A stretch of DNA of 41,884 nucleotides from Chloroflexota bacterium. Lineage in GTDB: Bacteria; Chloroflexota; Dehalococcoidia; UBA2247; RBG-13-53-26. This document shows positions 2,278 through 41,618 of this stretch, one piece after another (within the stretch, counting starts at the first letter, position 1; each line of letters begins with the position of its first letter). The notes under the pieces are model-generated. The model saw nothing but the letters and a program-made list of their open reading frames with translations. It had not been told where the DNA came from and searched no databases. Where the stretch lies: positions 1 to 41,884 of the forward strand of contig VGOE01000016.1 in the NCBI GenBank assembly GCA_016876035.1, written 5' to 3'. A program made the position numbers and the translations under genes.

Positions 2278-3771
2278 ATGGATAATGGCCCCACCCAGTC
2301 AGCAGTAGTTCCGCCAGTGCGGGTGCGTTACGCTCCCAGCCCCACCGGCTATCCCCATGTGGGCAATATCAGGACTGCCATGTTCAACTGGCTATTTGCC
2401 AGGCATTATGGAGGCAGCTTCATTGTCCGCATTGAAGATACGGACGTGGAAAGAAAGGTGGAGGGGGCGGTAGAGGATATCCTGGGTAGTCTGCGATGGC
2501 TGGGGCTGGAGTGGGATGAGGGGCCCGAGGTGGGGGGTGACTATGGCCCTTATACCCAGTCACGACGACTGGAGCTGTATCACCCCGCAGCCCAGCAACT
2601 GGTGAGAGATGGTTATGCCTATCCCTGCTATTGCTCTCCAGAAAGGCTGGAAGCGATGAGAGCAGAACAGGTGCGCCGTGGGCAGCCGCCCGGCTACGAT
2701 CGCCAGTGCCGCAACCTCAGCCAGCAAGAACGTTCTCGTTTGGAAGCCCAAGGTATCACCCCAGTGACCCGTTTCAGAATGCCCCTAACTGGTCGGACAC
2801 AGTTCAGAGATCTGATTCGGGGAAAGGTGCTGTTTGAGAATAGCACACTGGACGACTTCGTGCTGCTCAAATCGGATGGTTATCCCACCTACCACTTGGC
2901 CAACGTAGTTGATGATCACCTGATGCAGATTTCACACGTTCTCAGAGCGGATGAATGGTTGGCGAGCACACCGCGCCATATCTTGCTTTATCTGGCCCTC
3001 AGCTATCAGCCTCCGCAGTTTGCCCACCTGCCCATGATTTTGGGGCCAGATCGTAGCAAACTGAGTAAACGCCACGGTGCCACTTCTCTGCTGGAGTTCA
3101 GAGACGAGGGCTACCTGCCTGAAGCTATGCTGAACTACCTCGCTCTCCTGGGCTGGTCCCTGGACGACCGTACCGAGCTCTTCAGCCGCGAGGAACTGAT
3201 AAGACATTTCTCCCTGGAGCGCCTCAGCAAGACAGCCGCCATCTTTGACATCGAGAAGCTTCGCTGGATGAACGGTGTCTACATCCGCCGGTTAAGGGTT
3301 GAAGAGCTTACGGAAAAGGCGCTACCCTTTTTTGAAAAGCACCTACCAGCCCAGGTCAGACGTCCACTCAGCCGGGACTACGTGAGCCAAGTGGTCTCCC
3401 TGGAGCAGGAAAGGGCCAGGACGCTGGCTGAATTGCCACAGCTCGCCGAGTTCTTCTTCGTTGAAAGGCTTGTTTATCCCAGCGAGCTGTGGCTAAACAC
3501 CGGCATGACCAGGGAGAAGAGTGCTGAAGCTCTATCGAATGCTCTGAAGAAGCTGCAAGCCTTGCAGTCCTTCGATAACGATTCTCTGGAGGCGTTGCTG
3601 CGTTCTTTAGCCACGGAACTCTCTCTCAAAACGAAGGAATTTTTCGGCCTGCTGCGAGTGGCCATCACCGGGCGTAATGCTGCTCCTCCCCTCTTCCACA
3701 CTATGGCGGTGCTTCAGAAAGAGAAATGCCTGCACCGCATACAGGCCGCGCTACACCTTTTGCAGGCCTAG
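2278..3771 (+). CDS. gltX: Glutamyl-tRNA synthetase
   Basis: This class I aminoacyl-tRNA synthetase charges tRNA-Glu (and in many bacteria also tRNA-Gln, for later amidation). The 497-residue protein has the HIGH-type motif in APSPTGYPHVGN (19-30), the RIEDTD segment after it, and the KMSKS-type loop SKLSKRHG near residues 260-266, followed by an all-helical anticodon-binding domain. Length is normal. The ATG at 2278 has no visible Shine-Dalgarno. A TAGAAT hexamer at 2258-2263 could be a -10 box giving a very short leader, but no convincing -35 accompanies it. A Cys pair near residues 118-120 (YCYC) lies where some GluRS enzymes bind zinc. Confidence 0.96.
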   Translation: MDNGPTQSAVVPPVRVRYAPSPTGYPHVGNIRTAMFNWLFARHYGGSFIVRIEDTDVERKVEGAVEDILGSLRWLGLEWDEGPEVGGDYGPYTQSRRLELYHPAAQQLVRDGYAYPCYCSPERLEAMRAEQVRRGQPPGYDRQCRNLSQQERSRLEAQGITPVTRFRMPLTGRTQFRDLIRGKVLFENSTLDDFVLLKSDGYPTYHLANVVDDHLMQISHVLRADEWLASTPRHILLYLALSYQPPQFAHLPMILGPDRSKLSKRHGATSLLEFRDEGYLPEAMLNYLALLGWSLDDRTELFSREELIRHFSLERLSKTAAIFDIEKLRWMNGVYIRRLRVEELTEKALPFFEKHLPAQVRRPLSRDYVSQVVSLEQERARTLAELPQLAEFFFVERLVYPSELWLNTGMTREKSAEALSNALKKLQALQSFDNDSLEALLRSLATELSLKTKEFFGLLRVAITGRNAAPPLFHTMAVLQKEKCLHRIQAALHLLQA

Positions 3772-5045: not shown

Positions 5046-6317
5046 ATGGAAACACAGAGATGCAAAGGTAGCCGGGATCTCCTACCCGGAGACATGGCCA
5101 GGTTCCGTCACGTTGAGAAGGTCTTTCGTTCCTGCTGCTTAGGCTGGGGCTACCAGGAGGTAAGGACTCCCACTTTAGAGTATCTTCACCTGTTTACCTC
5201 CACCGGAACCCTCACCCCTAACATGCTGAGCAGGGTGTATTCCTTCCTCGATTGGGATGGGTGGAGCGGTGAGAGGGTGGTACTAAGACCCGACGGTACG
5301 ATTCCTGCCGCCCGGCTTTATGTCGAGAATTTTCCCCAGGCTCAGCCAGCCAAGCTCTTCTATATAGAGAACGTCTTCAGCTACGAAGAAACCGGAAGAG
5401 AGTCAAGGGAGCGATGGCAGTGCGGTGCCGAGGTAGTAGGCAGCGCCAGACCATTGGCCGACGTAGAACTGATAATGCTCGCCCTGGAGACCTTAGGCCA
5501 GCTAGGCATCAAAGAGGTGAAGGTGCATCTTTCTCATGCGGGAGTCATAAGAGCCGTGCTCAAGGAATTGGGATTGTCACCAGCGCAGCAGAGCGAGCTT
5601 TTTCAGCGAGTCCTAGACGGTGACACAGAGGCAATGAGCAGAATGGTTAGTGCTAGTCCTCACCTCAGAAACGCCATGTCTTTGCTTTTCGAGGGCAAAG
5701 GGAGATCAGCCGGCCATCTGCAAAATCTGAAAATCACTCTGGAAAGAGCATTGCTAAGCCCCCACCTCGAGGCAAGTATGAATGACTTCATTGCCATTGC
5801 TCAATGCCTGACTGAGCTAGGCTGTGAATATCAGGTTGATATCGTTTCCGGAAGGAGCTTTGAGTACTACACCGGAATAATTTTCCGGTTCTACAGCAAG
5901 GGGGAGAGACTGGGTGGAGGAGGTAGATACAACGACTTAATACCACTGTTAGGAGGGGGAGACATCCCTGCCTCCGGCTTCGCTCTTCCCCTAGACAGGC
6001 TGATAAATCTGATCACGGATTGGCAGGACAAAGCGCCCAGGGTTCTGATCCAGAGCGATGTCAGCATAACCGGCATCCATAAGCTTTGCTTTGAAACCGC
6101 CGGTGCTCTCCGCCGGGCCGGTTATGTAGCCGAGCTGGACCAGGGACATGCAAAGACAAGCGACTACCGGTGGGTTCTTGCAATCAAAGGGGAAAGCGCC
6201 AAGCCTGCTTTCCTTTTGACTGATAAAGCTGGCGGCAAGTCTCTCAGAGCAGATTCAGCCGCTGAGATTTTGAAAGCGCTACAGACAGCAGATGCAACTA
6301 AAGCTAGCTCTCCCTAA
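5046..6317 (+). CDS. hisZ: ATP phosphoribosyltransferase regulatory subunit HisZ (HisS paralogue)
   Basis: HisZ is a catalytically dead relative of histidyl-tRNA synthetase that binds short-form HisG and provides histidine feedback. The 423-residue protein has class II synthetase features: KGSRDLLPGD at the N-terminus, motif 2-like RPDGTIPAARLY near residues 81-92, RSFEYYTGIIF near 269-279 and GGGRYNDL near 291-298. It also has a C-terminal anticodon-binding-like domain (about 335-420), which many HisZ proteins lack. The hisZ call rests on the immediate overlap (26 bases) with hisG. Without that context a divergent HisS would be considered; the canonical HisS motif RPEGT is RPDGT here. Start ATG 5046 fits the promoter. 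Confidence 0.82.
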   Translation: METQRCKGSRDLLPGDMARFRHVEKVFRSCCLGWGYQEVRTPTLEYLHLFTSTGTLTPNMLSRVYSFLDWDGWSGERVVLRPDGTIPAARLYVENFPQAQPAKLFYIENVFSYEETGRESRERWQCGAEVVGSARPLADVELIMLALETLGQLGIKEVKVHLSHAGVIRAVLKELGLSPAQQSELFQRVLDGDTEAMSRMVSASPHLRNAMSLLFEGKGRSAGHLQNLKITLERALLSPHLEASMNDFIAIAQCLTELGCEYQVDIVSGRSFEYYTGIIFRFYSKGERLGGGGRYNDLIPLLGGGDIPASGFALPLDRLINLITDWQDKAPRVLIQSDVSITGIHKLCFETAGALRRAGYVAELDQGHAKTSDYRWVLAIKGESAKPAFLLTDKAGGKSLRADSAAEILKALQTADATKASSP

Positions 6318-7704
6318 AGGTAATCTTCTTTCCCCGACCAGTGCCTTTTTGCAACGCACGGGACTGGAACTCAGTTGCTATGATGGCCAATCTCGCTCCT
6401 ACCGGCCCCGGTGCGACAAGCTCCCCGAACTTTTCCTGAAGGTATTCCACGAAAAGGATGTGCCTATCCAGGTAGCCGTGGGAAACTACGACTTGGGAAT
6501 CTGTGGTCGAGATTGGGTTGAAGAGCTTCTGGCCAAGTACCCTAGCAGCGCTCTGGTTAAGGTACTGGACTTGAACTATGGTAAGACCGCTCTGTACGTA
6601 GCCTGTAGCAAGTCGGACAGTTCCAGGTCGATAGACTACTGGCAGACCAAGCCAGGAACCATACGCATAGCCACTGAATACCCCAGTCTGGCTGAGTCCT
6701 TCGCCCTGAGCCTCAGGCTAAGGCGATTCAGCATCTTCCCTCTTTGGGGAGCGGCTGAGGCCTATCCCCCGGAAAATGCTGATCTGGCTTTGATTTCCTT
6801 GCCCACGGGCAATCCCTTTAATCAGACACTGTCCCCGGTATCAATGGTCCTTTCCTCAAGCGCATTACTGATCGCCCACCGAACTAGCTGGGACTCTAGA
6901 GACCTGAGTCCGCTGCTTCGATGCCTTCACTCAGCAAGTGATGCCAAAGAGATAACAATCGGAAATATAGAGGGCCAGAAAGAGGGCGTAGATGAATCTC
7001 TTCCCAGCCCTCTACGCCCGGACTCTGCTGTTCGGCTGGGTCTTCCTGACGGGCACCTGCAAGGGCCAGCACTGGAATTCTTGGGCAGGGCGGGCATCAC
7101 CATCCAGAATAACCCTCCAGACCCACGCCGGCCTGGTACTAATATCGAAGGCATAAGTACAAAGATGGTTCGGCCCCAGGATATGCCCCTCCAGGTGGCC
7201 AATGGGAACTTCGACCTGGCCGTCACGGGTGAAGACTGGCTCCTGAACCACCTTTGTCGCTTCCCCTCCAGCCCGGTGAAGCAAATTCTGAGGCTAGGTT
7301 TTGGCAAAGTAAGGGTAGTGGCCGTAGTTAGCAAGCAGCTTCCTGTGGACAGCCCCCAAGACTTGAGGGAGCTACTGAGGAAGGGTCATCTCTCCAGGCT
7401 GAGAGTAGCCTCAGAGTACACTGATATCGCCGACAAATACGCCCGGGATAACCATCTCAGCCCTTATCGACTGATTCCTACCTGGGGGGCCAGCGAGGTA
7501 TTCTTGCCCGAAGACGCGGATCTGCTGATTGAGAACGTCCAGACCGGGCGAACGCTGGCCGAGCATAATCTGAAGGTTATTGACACGCTCTTTGAATCCT
7601 CGTCCTGCCTTATCGGTAGCACCCATACCCCTCACGATAGCTATAAGCTGGAGAGGATGAACAGCTTCATTCATACTCTACAGCAAGCGATAGATAAAAG
7701 CTGA
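6292..7704 (+). CDS. hisG: Tandem-fused ATP phosphoribosyltransferase (HisG-HisG)
   Basis: HisG joins ATP and PRPP in the first step of histidine synthesis. Short-form HisG is about 210 residues; this protein has 470 and contains two HisG modules, about 1-215 and 245-468, with a linker rich in acidic residues. Module 1 has LPKGNL (7-12), VGNYDLGICGRDW (63-75) and IRIATEYP (124-131), but its PRPP loop is degraded (PTGNPFNQT, 171-179). Module 2 keeps the PRPP loop VQTGRTLAEHNL (416-427), NGNFDLAVTGEDW (304-316) and LRVASEYT (370-377), but the N-terminal PKG is PDG (Lys to Asp, 252-254). No ACT-like long-form C-terminal domain is seen. Start ATG 6292 overlaps hisZ. Both modules are clearly HisG; how they share catalysis is unknown. 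Confidence 0.88.
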   Translation: MQLKLALPKGNLLSPTSAFLQRTGLELSCYDGQSRSYRPRCDKLPELFLKVFHEKDVPIQVAVGNYDLGICGRDWVEELLAKYPSSALVKVLDLNYGKTALYVACSKSDSSRSIDYWQTKPGTIRIATEYPSLAESFALSLRLRRFSIFPLWGAAEAYPPENADLALISLPTGNPFNQTLSPVSMVLSSSALLIAHRTSWDSRDLSPLLRCLHSASDAKEITIGNIEGQKEGVDESLPSPLRPDSAVRLGLPDGHLQGPALEFLGRAGITIQNNPPDPRRPGTNIEGISTKMVRPQDMPLQVANGNFDLAVTGEDWLLNHLCRFPSSPVKQILRLGFGKVRVVAVVSKQLPVDSPQDLRELLRKGHLSRLRVASEYTDIADKYARDNHLSPYRLIPTWGASEVFLPEDADLLIENVQTGRTLAEHNLKVIDTLFESSSCLIGSTHTPHDSYKLERMNSFIHTLQQAIDKS

Positions 7705-29081: not shown

Positions 29082-31310
29082 CTACAACACCGGCGCTCGC
29101 AAAAGCGCATCACCCGCTTGCTTCGCTGCGGAGGCAATAGGCAAGGGCAAATCCTCCATCTGACGCAGGACCTCAGCGGTCTGAATAAGGAGCCATTGCA
29201 GATCGCCTTCCTCGATGTCGGCTTCTCCCACCACCCTTTCCCATTCTTCCCCTTCTGCCCAGAGCTTGACCGCTGCCCCCCTTTTCCAGGCCTCCTCGGC
29301 AGAAAACTGGACAGAAGAGATCCCCACCCTTCTCTCAAGCCTTTCCAGTTCCTCCGCCAGTTTCAGGAGTGATTCCAGGTTCAGGCGACCAACAGCCCGC
29401 CTGGGGCAGCGCCCGGGAGACAAAGCCCCAATCCAGCCGGCAAGCTCCGCAGCAGACAGCGAAGGATAGAGCTGGCGCCTTATCATCTCGGTGAAGATGA
29501 GGGAGTTCTCGTGCCGTATGAGCACAGCCCACCGGCCGAATTCCGTTAAGAAAAATGACTCGTCGAGATATCTGAATCTCTGCAAGATGCCTATCCTCTT
29601 CATCAGTTCGTCGCCCAGTTGTGCCTTGACCTCATGGAAGTCTTTTCGGGTGCTCTGCTGAAAAAGGAGGAGGCTCCTCTCCAGGATATCCCTGGTCTTG
29701 TCCAAACTGGAGCGATTGAGGAGATTCAGTATCTGGTGATAGCTGATCTTAAAAGCAGATTTTATCGCTTCTGGTTCAGAATTTTGCAGGCTCAAGGCCA
29801 CAAACAGATCCCTCTCATTTTCCGGGTCAAGGACAACAAAGCCGATCTTGTCCTTGCCTCTCCTGCCCGCCCTGCCCGTCATCTGCTGAAACTCCAGTGT
29901 GCTCAAGGGCCTCGCGCCAAAGCTGTCCCGTGCCATCAATGTAGGTAAGACCACGGTGCGGGCTGGTACATCCAGTCCTGCGGCTAGAGTCGTGGTGGCA
30001 AACACAGCCCGCAGCTTGCCTGTGGCCAGTATCCGCTCCACCGCTACTTTCCACCCCGTGAGATGGCCGGCGTGGTGCGAGGCTATCCCGGCCTCCACCA
30101 GAGGGTCTAGCAAAGGGTTGTCCCAAAGATAGGGATTGTCCCTGGCCGCTTCCGCCAGAATATCCCATCTTGACGCCCTGTCCTTCCAGGAAAAACCCTG
30201 AAACTTGGAGGCCGCCCGGTCACAATCTTTGCGCGACGGCAGGAAAATAATTGCCGGAAGGAGTTCCCTTTCCTCCAGCGTCTCAACCACTCTCACCGGG
30301 TTGAAACCTGACCTCGCCCTCTTTCGCGATCTGATAGCCTTTGAATCCAGGCTGAGAATATATTTTCTATGGGTCAGGAAGCCGTACCGCAAGGGGACTG
30401 GCCTCTCTTCCTCCTTGACAGGATGAGGTCTTTTCCGTCTCACCCTTTCCATCCATCTTACAATCTCATCAGCATTAGAGATCGTGGCCGAGAGAAGGAG
30501 GAGATGCGTCTCAGCCGGGGCCAGGATTATCACTTCCTCCCAGGTGGTGCCGCGCTGTTCATCCCCCAGGTAATGAGCCTCGTCCAGCACGGCTAAACAT
30601 GGTTTCTGATCTCCCGAGTAGAGCGCATTGCGAAATACTTCGGTGGTGGCCACTATCACCGGTGCCGATGGATTATCCTTCCTTTCCCCGGTGAGAAGCC
30701 CCACCCTTTGTTCGCCGAGAAGCTTTCGGAAATTGTCATACTTCTGATTCGACAGCGCCTTCAGGGGAGTGGTATACCAGCATGCTTTTCCTTGCTTCAG
30801 GAAACTCTCTATGGCTCGCTCTGCGATCCAGGTCTTGCCGCTTCCGGTGGGGGCGGTGACCACCACATCGCCCTGAAGGATGAGTTGCAGGGCCTCTTCC
30901 TGAAAGGGCGAGGGACAGAAAACGCAGGGTTCAGGCTCCCCCAACCCGCGGAGAAACTGGCTGGTGCGCTGATCAAGCTGGCTCTTGCTGACTCCTTTCT
31001 GCCTTATCCTTTCTTTCTGGCTGACCTTCGCCGCTTTCCTTTCGAGAGCTTTCAGCTCCTCTGGCCTGGAAGTAACGATAAACAGCTCCTGTACCACGTC
31101 TGAACTATAGGCCAGCAGCTTGGCACCACCCTGCACCGGGTACTTGTATCGAACCTGTAGGCCACTGACCATCTTCTTTGTCTTTCTGATTCTTCCAGGG
31201 ATAATGGTCCGGACATGGCCCAGAGGTTCCAGTTCCTCCTCCAGGAACTCCCTCAGCCCAGGTATGAGGCTGTGCTCGTACTTTATCTTCGAGCTTCCAC
31301 GGTATCGCAT
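29082..31310 (-). CDS. Ski2-like DEAH helicase with DUF2103-like N-terminal domain
   Basis: The 742-residue protein has a superfamily 2 core: APTGSGKT (153-160), TTPLKALSNQK (180-190), DEAH (243-246), LLLSATISNADE, HHAGH, TTTLAAGLDVPAR and QMTGRAGRRG (about 475). This arrangement is of the Ski2/Mtr4/HelY type, which unwind RNA or DNA. The first 80-90 residues (YEHSLIPGLREFL, then IIPGRIRK, then KLLAYSSDVVQELFIVT) look like the DUF2103 domain, normally a stand-alone predicted metal-binding protein; I recognise this from pattern memory and it should be tested. The C-terminal helical part could be a reduced DSHCT-like domain. ATG 31310 has no Shine-Dalgarno; a TAAAAT 8 bases upstream suggests a leaderless message. 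Confidence 0.85.
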   Translation of the reverse strand: MRYRGSSKIKYEHSLIPGLREFLEEELEPLGHVRTIIPGRIRKTKKMVSGLQVRYKYPVQGGAKLLAYSSDVVQELFIVTSRPEELKALERKAAKVSQKERIRQKGVSKSQLDQRTSQFLRGLGEPEPCVFCPSPFQEEALQLILQGDVVVTAPTGSGKTWIAERAIESFLKQGKACWYTTPLKALSNQKYDNFRKLLGEQRVGLLTGERKDNPSAPVIVATTEVFRNALYSGDQKPCLAVLDEAHYLGDEQRGTTWEEVIILAPAETHLLLLSATISNADEIVRWMERVRRKRPHPVKEEERPVPLRYGFLTHRKYILSLDSKAIRSRKRARSGFNPVRVVETLEERELLPAIIFLPSRKDCDRAASKFQGFSWKDRASRWDILAEAARDNPYLWDNPLLDPLVEAGIASHHAGHLTGWKVAVERILATGKLRAVFATTTLAAGLDVPARTVVLPTLMARDSFGARPLSTLEFQQMTGRAGRRGKDKIGFVVLDPENERDLFVALSLQNSEPEAIKSAFKISYHQILNLLNRSSLDKTRDILERSLLLFQQSTRKDFHEVKAQLGDELMKRIGILQRFRYLDESFFLTEFGRWAVLIRHENSLIFTEMIRRQLYPSLSAAELAGWIGALSPGRCPRRAVGRLNLESLLKLAEELERLERRVGISSVQFSAEEAWKRGAAVKLWAEGEEWERVVGEADIEEGDLQWLLIQTAEVLRQMEDLPLPIASAAKQAGDALLRAPVL

Positions 31311-39854: not shown

Positions 39855-41573
39855 TTAGTTGTGTTTCAGACCGGCCAGCAGGTCTTCCACCGGTAGAGTG
39901 TTCAATATGTTGCGTGCCTCACACCAGCCACGGCGGGCTATGCCGATGCCAAAGCGCATCAGGGCCAAATGGTCAGCCCTATGAGCATCAGTGCTCATGA
40001 TAAGCTTCACCCCCAGCTCTCTGGCCCGCATTACGTGAACGTCCTTCAGGTCGAGGCGCTCCGGCATAGCGTTGATTTCCAGGGCTGTCCCCGCTTGCGC
40101 CGCAGCATGAAAAACCGCCTCCATGTCCAGGGCAACAGGCTCCCTCTCACCCAGTAGCCGACAGGTGGGATGAGCTATCACATCCACATGGGGATTCCTT
40201 ATCGCCATCAGAACCCTCTCAGTCATCTTGGCCTGATCCTGTCCCATAGCAGAGTGCACCGCAGCCACCACCACATCCAGCTCTTTCAGAAGTTCGTCAG
40301 GAAAGTCCAGGCTTCCATTGGCACGGATATCCACCTCGATCCCAGTGAGAATGCGGAGGTCGGTCACCCTTTCATTGAGCCTTCTGATCTCGGCCATTTG
40401 CTCCCGCAAGCGCTCCTCCGTCAGTCCACGGGCAATCCCCCGACCCCGAGAATGCTCGGTTATGGCGATGTACTGGTAGCCCAGGGCCCGGGCTGTCACG
40501 GTCATAGCTTCCAGAGAGTCATGGCCATCGCTCCAGTCAGTATGGACGTGGAGGTCACCTTTGATGTCTGACAACTTCACCAGTTCAGGGATAGAACCTT
40601 GCTCCGCCCTCTCCACCTCCTGCTGTCCTTCCCGCAACTCCGGGGGGATCAGGGGCAGGCCCAGGCGATGATAGAACTCCTCCTCGGTAGCGAACTTCTC
40701 CAACTCGCCTGTTCGCAGATCAGTGATCCCATACTCACTCAATTTGACCCCCTGGCGACGCCCCCTTTCCCTGAGAACGATGTTATGCTGCTTGCTGCCG
40801 GTGAAATATTGAAGCAGAGAGCCGAAGGCATCGTGTTCCACCACCCGGAGGTCCACCTGAAGCCCCTGGTCAGCAATAATGCTGGCCTTGGTGACTCCTT
40901 TGGCCAGCACCTCCTTTGCCAGAGGCAGACGAATGAAGGCCTCGATAGCCGCCTCAGCTTCATCTGCCGTGCCCATCAGGTCAATGTCGCCGATGGTCTC
41001 CCTGAAGCGGCGTAGGCTTCCTGCTGGAGTAAGGTGGCGCAGGTCAGACGTCTTGCCGAGAGAGGCCATGATATCTTCCACCAAGGGCAGGGCGACACCA
41101 ATGGGGATGCGCCGCTCCTTGGTGCGCAGCGACTGGAGGTGACGCAGGATATTTTCCGCTGTCTTATCACCCAGGCGGAAGAGCTTGGCCACCTTACCTT
41201 CAAGGATGGCCGTTTCCAGTTCCTCCACCGATTTTATCCCAAGTTCGGTGGAAAGTCTGACGGCAGTCTTGGGGCCGATGCCGGGTATCTCCAGGAGGCT
41301 GATGACCCCTTCGGGGAATTCCGCCCGCAATTTCTCGTAGTATTCCAGGCGGCCAGTGGTGAGAAGCTCGGTAATCTTCTTGGCAATAGCCTCGCCAACG
41401 CCGGGCACCTCCTTCAGCCTGCCCTCCTCCATCAATTGCTCCAGCTCCACCGGTAAATACTCTATGGAACGCACCGCCTTCTGGTACGCCCTCACCTTGA
41501 AGGGTATTTCGCCCTTCATCTCCAGGAAGTCGGCGATATCCTGGAATACTCTAGCTACCTCGCTGTTCTTCAT
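39855..41573 (-). CDS. polX: DNA polymerase/3'-5' exonuclease PolX
   Basis: The 572-residue family X polymerase has helix-hairpin-helix motifs (PGVGEAIAKKI near 55-65, PGIGPKTAVRL near 97-107), the nucleotidyltransferase core GSLRRFRETIGDIDLM and LQVDLRVV, and a C-terminal PHP exonuclease domain with DLHVHTDWSDG (about 335-345), EHSRG, GIEVDI, AHPTCR and STDAHRADHL. Bacterial PolX fills short gaps in base-excision repair and proofreads. ATG 41573 is chosen because TTG 41606 would begin upstream of the predicted start site. Length matches the family. Confidence 0.95.
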   Translation of the reverse strand: MKNSEVARVFQDIADFLEMKGEIPFKVRAYQKAVRSIEYLPVELEQLMEEGRLKEVPGVGEAIAKKITELLTTGRLEYYEKLRAEFPEGVISLLEIPGIGPKTAVRLSTELGIKSVEELETAILEGKVAKLFRLGDKTAENILRHLQSLRTKERRIPIGVALPLVEDIMASLGKTSDLRHLTPAGSLRRFRETIGDIDLMGTADEAEAAIEAFIRLPLAKEVLAKGVTKASIIADQGLQVDLRVVEHDAFGSLLQYFTGSKQHNIVLRERGRRQGVKLSEYGITDLRTGELEKFATEEEFYHRLGLPLIPPELREGQQEVERAEQGSIPELVKLSDIKGDLHVHTDWSDGHDSLEAMTVTARALGYQYIAITEHSRGRGIARGLTEERLREQMAEIRRLNERVTDLRILTGIEVDIRANGSLDFPDELLKELDVVVAAVHSAMGQDQAKMTERVLMAIRNPHVDVIAHPTCRLLGEREPVALDMEAVFHAAAQAGTALEINAMPERLDLKDVHVMRARELGVKLIMSTDAHRADHLALMRFGIGIARRGWCEARNILNTLPVEDLLAGLKHN

Positions 41574-41589
41574 TGGATAGTTTTTTCGT

Positions 41590-41618
41590 CTAGTACCGTG
41601 TAACACTTAAAGATTCAA
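41590..41618 (-). promoter_or_regulatory. polX promoter
   Basis: Reading leftward, -35 TTGAAT (41613-41618), a 17-base spacer and -10 TACTAG (41590-41595) lie 16 bases before the polX ATG, leaving a leader of about 9 nt without a Shine-Dalgarno. The -10 and most of the spacer form one arm of the inverted repeat at 41590-41692. Confidence 0.55.

Follow-up and report, generated by a model that had tools for sequence, protein, structure and literature searches.

Tandem HisG, in which two HisG modules lie in a single chain, is an old, class-wide feature of the Dehalococcoidia and no peculiarity of one genome. Read at the level of sequence, the two domains share a single origin, partition the active-site motifs between them, stand under purifying selection and are linked to hisZ. 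The explanation that we consider reasonably probable is that HisG was duplicated once within the class, fused, and locked as a pseudo-symmetric internal dimer, each chain having its one productive site in module 2 where a HisG homodimer has two sites. What had been a symmetric pair of enzymes seems to have turned into an asymmetric chain that works at one site only.

The window, that is, the whole 41,884-nucleotide stretch of DNA that was analysed, carries the gene together with that of its partner:

5046 to 6317, forward strand: hisZ, gene of the regulatory subunit (HisRS-like), 423 aa; PF13393 at 203 bits; overlaps the start of hisG by 26 nt.
6292 to 7704, forward strand: tandem hisG, 470 aa, the sole HisG of the genome.
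6292 to 6945, forward strand: module 1 (residues 1-218), HisG fold without a PRPP loop; TIGR00070; pLDDT mostly 80-97.
6946 to 7026, forward strand: linker (residues 219-245), predicted to be disordered at 219-240 (pLDDT <50).
7027 to 7701, forward strand: module 2 (residues 246-470), HisG fold with an intact PRPP loop; TIGR00070.

The tandem gene is a single uninterrupted open reading frame with an ATG start and no internal stop. Residues 1-233 alone score 117.0 bits against the TIGR00070 hisG model and 89.4 bits against PF01634, while the second half alone scores 127.7 and 115.6 bits, respectively, the curated cut-offs being 75.75 bits for TIGR00070 and 25.5 bits for PF01634. The first-pass annotation had placed two HisG modules within one 470-residue protein, and the profile scores bear this out, neither half failing as a HisG when run separately. 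Aligned with each other, the halves share 31% identity across 223 columns (E 4e-33), and the spacing between the domains in relatives is mostly 24-30 residues. The HisG_C domain that marks the long form, HisGL, is absent from the window protein (no PF08029 and no TIGR03455 match) and present in the single-HisG relatives scanned. The lack of HisG_C and the HisZ partner are traits of the short form, but there are two HisG domains per chain, whereas the short form has one, its HisG homodimers being built into a hetero-octamer. The tandem protein is a HisG by sequence and fold, yet it matches neither the standard short form nor the long form.

AlphaFold2 was run on the window protein and on a relative 46-47% identical to it, the two runs sharing alignment members and hence not being fully independent. 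The pTM was 0.84 in both, with pLDDT values of 87.6 and 87.8, and only the linker fell below 50. The two modules have like secondary structure in the model, which in Foldseek searches matches HisG chains at a target TM of about 0.8-0.88 (short or core chains) over about 220-235 columns, the extent of one module, and so has the HisG fold; no PDB chain covering both modules was among the Foldseek matches listed. Loosely placed domains of 220 residues could not reach a pTM of 0.84, and the modules are therefore predicted to adopt a defined mutual arrangement, in which they may pack head to tail.

The protein encoded at 5046-6317 also matches hisZ and hisS models, below both cut-offs. The earlier observation that the tandem gene adjoins hisZ extends well beyond the window and its 26-nt overlap, with hisZ directly upstream in 69 of the 69 testable loci. 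Apart from the tandem protein, no HisG is encoded in the 2.5 Mb assembly, which has homologues of hisI, hisD and hisA/hisF on other contigs, as well as a second HisRS-like (hisS-like) gene on contig C35, presumably the true hisS. Since there is no other HisG and further his genes are present, the first step must fall to the tandem protein if the pathway operates; that this protein is the organism's ATP phosphoribosyltransferase forms, as read from these genes, part of the best explanation. The his genes of this genome (G000) are scattered, with hisZG on C16, hisD on C8, hisI beside a hisA/hisF homologue on C17, and others on C4 and C73. A scan for promoters and terminators gave no more hits than in shuffles, and an Rfam scan of the window gave no match. 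Elsewhere in the window, on the reverse strand, 29082-31310 encodes a DUF2103 metal-binding domain N-terminal on a DEAD/DSHCT helicase chain, and 39855-41606 a DNA polymerase X family protein with a PHP domain.

Among Dehalococcoidia genomes of at least 90% completeness, 326 of 345 are HisG-positive, about half of these, as counted from the table, at tandem strength (E below 1e-40; contig ends truncate a few) and the remainder at single-domain strength. Most matching genomes in a sample of 60 relatives match over the full tandem length, and in the phylum sample no genome outside Dehalococcoidia matched better than E 1.8e-20, which is single-domain strength. The search for other proteins with two HisG domains led to 70 tandem ORFs being read in the class, those of loci L033 and L059 being identical over both modules. 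One family with the tandem, f18, consists mostly of single-contig genomes of 1.4-2.1 Mb that carry 18-50 reductive-dehalogenase matches each, and therefore includes organohalide respirers, which are very probably Dehalococcoides and Dehalogenimonas. Tandem HisG thus occurs in organohalide-respiring bacteria of the Dehalococcoidia.

Most of these genomes are fragmented draft assemblies, in which an error of assembly or annotation might join two genes. We give such an artefact next to no credence, however, as the same fusion occurs in some 70 sequences, single-contig genomes included, with variable linkers and one old duplication behind them; chance is likewise rejected for an architecture conserved across the class. 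Pieces resembling single modules in G487 and G488 run to contig ends and were dropped. Outside the class, G089, G098, G124, G295, G328 and others show two weak HisG matches per genome, which may represent a pair of genes or one gene in two pieces; G295 (L090), the one among them that was inspected, has one single HisG, and other kinds of HisG duplication may exist outside the class. An unexpected arrangement was seen at L048, L052, L055 and similar single-HisG loci of the class, where a HisZ/HisRS-like gene is followed immediately by a long-form HisG that has HisG_C, the copy at L055 also having an anticodon-binding domain.

On a maximum-likelihood tree of 64 rows, all first modules form one clade (100/100), all second modules another (100/99), and the two are sister clades (100/95). 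It follows that the duplication happened once, before the carriers radiated. The nearest single HisG on this tree belongs to the same class (L081, 98/89). It is encoded at L081:3991-4965 (G258) and is a long form: it has HisG_C, reads PIGH at the PKG position, keeps SRSY intact, and lies in a cluster with hisD- and hisC-like ORFs (named by reading their sequences) and no hisZ; it may resemble the ancestor before duplication. That ancestor was apparently a long-form HisG that lost HisG_C, its descendants now always being found with hisZ. The stem of the first modules is about twice as long as that of the second (0.89 versus 0.43), so module 1 is, by branch length, the more changed module. Both modules are under purifying selection, which is strong in close pairs, with dN/dS of about 0.02-0.25 where dS is unsaturated, and module 2 is the more conserved half.

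A natural split form also exists. In L046 (G054), hisZ is followed by two separate, overlapping genes, each a frame of 232 residues, the second of which can start at GTG 3016, ahead of the first gene's stop at 3024-3026. The partition is that of the fused forms, the first gene having SRSY and no PRPP loop and the second PDGH and TGATL. L046 is nested inside the fused clades on a FastTree tree with weakly supported inner nodes, and its split is probably a later fission, an indication that the modules are able to function as separate polypeptides. A frameshift is an unlikely cause, as read-through leaves about 8 linker residues, against at least 19 in every fused protein, and a GTG start overlapping a stop is usual for coupled genes.

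HisG is a textbook allosteric enzyme, and research on the HisZG of Psychrobacter arcticus and Acinetobacter baumannii centres on how HisZ brings an arginine from one subunit into the site of the adjacent one. Arg56 of one P. arcticus subunit crosses the dimer to the PRPP pyrophosphate in the partner site; R32A costs 25-fold and R56A 42-fold, each being partly rescued by HisZ, while R56K is strongly impaired and is not rescued by HisZ (PMC9734150). Arg73 likewise acts in trans, contacting the ATP gamma-phosphate of the adjacent subunit (PMC10998830). Motif equivalences were established by alignment to the P. arcticus HisG sequence, with the Arg56 region of module 2 read by eye and by pattern, and the motifs in the window protein lie as follows:

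6313 to 6324, forward strand: PKGN, the loop of module 1 (residues 8-11) that corresponds to SKGR 29-32 in P. arcticus.
6394 to 6396, forward strand: Arg35 of module 1 in an SRSY context, equivalent of P. arcticus Arg56.
6802 to 6828, forward strand: degenerate PRPP loop PTGNPFNQT of module 1 (residues 171-179), its columns not conserved.
7045 to 7056, forward strand: PDGH of module 2 (residues 252-255), a fixed replacement of the PKGR loop.
7126 to 7131, forward strand: Arg279-Arg280 of an RRP motif, where Arg56 would lie in module 2; the loop length varies.
7171 to 7173, forward strand: Arg294 of module 2 in RPQDMP, equivalent of P. arcticus Arg73.
7531 to 7572, forward strand: PRPP-binding loop ENVQTGRTLAEHNL of module 2 (residues 414-427), intact.

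Motif counts refer to the 70 tandem ORFs, 69 of them distinct. The TGx[TS] pattern of the PRPP loop is found in 70/70 second modules and 0/70 first modules, and the same division holds for the fuller pattern (E/D/Q)TGxTL, which every second module has and every first module lacks; T418, G419, T421 and L427 are invariant in alignment A1. That both modules are active ATP phosphoribosyltransferases, or that the two clefts carry out different reactions, is consequently hard to credit and in our view very unlikely: each module does score as HisG and is under purifying selection, but none of the 70 first modules has the loop.

The arginine that acts across the dimer is distributed the other way. The Arg56 position of module 1 is R in 61 sequences and K in five, with four unscored, i.e., R or K in all 66 scored, and the Arg56-type pattern [SATP]RxY occurs in nearly all first modules and in none of the 70 second modules, in which R279 and R280 are conserved in 28/42 and 36/42 sequences. 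The lysine was seen in L077, and by counts in its near-identical relatives L027 and L074, as AKIY (3/70); these single-contig sequences of family f18, genus g24, are likely Dehalococcoides. A KGR-type loop is likewise confined to module 1 (PKGN in the window), with KGR in 46/70 and TGD, AGD, RGE or AGE types in a deep clade. Module 2 has DGH in 69/70 and NGH in the remaining one, so its PDG is part of a fixed DGH motif and no random degradation of PKG. The Arg73-type position is R in 68/68 readable second modules and in 10 to 12 first modules, most of the others having H, Q or N (His53 in the window protein); in the deep clade, Arg73 is mostly kept in module 1, whose own PKG loop has decayed. 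The pattern of the short form, with a KGR loop and SRK arginines in each subunit, is thus not found here. Single HisG proteins in the tree set have the Arg56-type arginine in 25/25, the Arg73-type in 24/25, the lysine of PKG in 18/25 and the PRPP loop in nearly all.

The first-pass annotation had described module 1 as keeping its PKG loop with a degraded PTGNPFNQT, and module 2 as having PDG with a good PRPP loop, VQTGRTLAEHNL, all of which reads as claimed. Its phrase for this, a complementary loss of motifs, is apt in so far as retention is unequal between the modules; the pattern is nevertheless no clean swap, as DGH is a fixed motif and PKG and Arg73 sort opposite to the PRPP loop and Arg56.

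Because the TGx[TS] and Arg56-type motifs are partitioned, module 2 together with module 1 is the only pairing that has both a PRPP loop and a trans Arg56. The working site would then be that of module 2, whose cleft would hold PRPP binding and chemistry. Module 1 would have lost PRPP binding to become a dedicated partner, its Arg35 reaching across the interface of the pseudo-dimer to stabilise pyrophosphate as it leaves, and would probably share in relaying the HisZ signal. Module 1 has lost its PRPP loop and yet retains an arginine of use only to the neighbouring module, which argues that it is not a mere decaying copy, and the loss from module 2 of its own Arg56-type arginine implies that the site of its neighbour is dead. 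An arginine kept in module 1 and a PRPP loop kept in module 2 are what a single composite site predicts. A HisZ tetramer with two tandem chains would have two working sites instead of four, a plausible change in HisZ stoichiometry; a regulatory role for one module is plausible as well.

The catalytic unit might instead be a dimer formed by the second modules of two chains, with module 1 an accessory, e.g., for HisZ docking. The stronger conservation of module 2 and its PRPP loop in all 70 sequences would suit such a unit, but it would contain no trans arginine of the Arg56 type, which module 1 keeps without a PRPP site of its own, and it sits poorly with the high pTM of the intrachain arrangement. 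We disfavour this homodimer as quite improbable.

Of the options raised at first reading, an internal pseudo-dimer with one working site is the best supported, by the pTM of 0.84 in both runs, the PRPP loop only in module 2 and the trans arginine only in module 1. The deep clade, with Arg73 mostly in module 1 and a decayed PKG loop, fits a single composite site fully. What counts against the internal dimer is that, in the window's clade, Arg73, reported to act in trans, is in module 2 and PKG(R), presumed to act in cis, in module 1, both of which point to the cleft of module 1. A simple model, in which module 2 keeps all needed elements and the rest is lost, is for this reason not fully borne out. 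In the window's clade these two positions may have other roles, or the module 1 cleft may still bind nucleotide; the contrast between the clades rests largely on one split and not on many independent events. By analogy with P. arcticus R56K, which HisZ does not rescue, the lysine at the Arg56 position of the likely Dehalococcoides sequences would also speak against the internal dimer.

Module 1 may, alternatively, be chiefly a regulatory pseudo-site, whose cleft binds ATP, ADP, AMP or ppGpp without PRPP and tunes module 2 by energy charge; PKG(R) would contribute to that cleft in cis, and Arg294 of module 2 from the opposite side. The window's clade keeps around this cleft exactly the elements that are not needed for binding the PRPP 5'-phosphate, K9 being present in most sequences and R294, whose P. 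arcticus counterpart contacts the neighbour's ATP gamma-phosphate, being invariant. However, R294 lies within an invariant RPQDMP that may be structural, and the reading is not general, as the deep clade has a TGD/AGD/RGE loop and Arg73 mostly in module 1. We regard it as unlikely, with some chance of being right. Much the same small chance attaches to a combined form, in which one half would be catalytic while the other would supply the trans arginine and also sense nucleotides at a pseudo-site, joining HisZ-dependent histidine feedback to an energy signal, with half the sites per HisZ tetramer.

Under the preferred reading, that of an internal dimer with its working site in module 2, nature has set the PRPP side and the trans-arginine side apart in the tandem, and the two sides of the cross-subunit mechanism can hence be probed separately; a homodimer is hard to mutate on one side only. 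The tandem hisG is, furthermore, a lineage-limited gene elongation in the histidine pathway of which fused and split forms are both extant. The remark at first reading that no tandem HisG had been described agrees with our searches, which found no description of tandem, fused or duplicated HisG in 5.39 million open papers, subscription papers and database domain views lying outside that scope, and with a 2020 review on the elongation of his genes, which reports no internal repeats beyond hisA, hisF, hisB and hisD (PMC7284861). A 2007 review of his fusions includes two Dehalococcoidetes genomes and, in the passages covered, mentions hisG only when the operon is described.

The tandem protein shares with the short-form HisGS/HisZ enzymes of Psychrobacter arcticus, Acinetobacter baumannii and Thermotoga maritima the HisG catalytic fold, the lack of HisG_C, an adjoining hisZ, and the logic of a PRPP loop served by a trans arginine. 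It differs from the short-form homodimer in being one chain of two diverged modules with one PRPP loop per pair, and in having a fixed DGH loop in the module that carries the PRPP loop; on the tree, its modules group with long-form HisG and not with the solved short forms. The long-form HisGL enzymes (PF01634 plus PF08029) are its nearest tree relatives, yet the tandem is without HisG_C and always paired with hisZ, whereas L081 has HisG_C and no hisZ. Finally, the elongations of hisA, hisF, hisB and hisD arose likewise by in-tandem duplication and fusion, giving two diverged modules, and are held to predate LUCA and to be universal (PMC7284861), while that of hisG belongs to one bacterial class.
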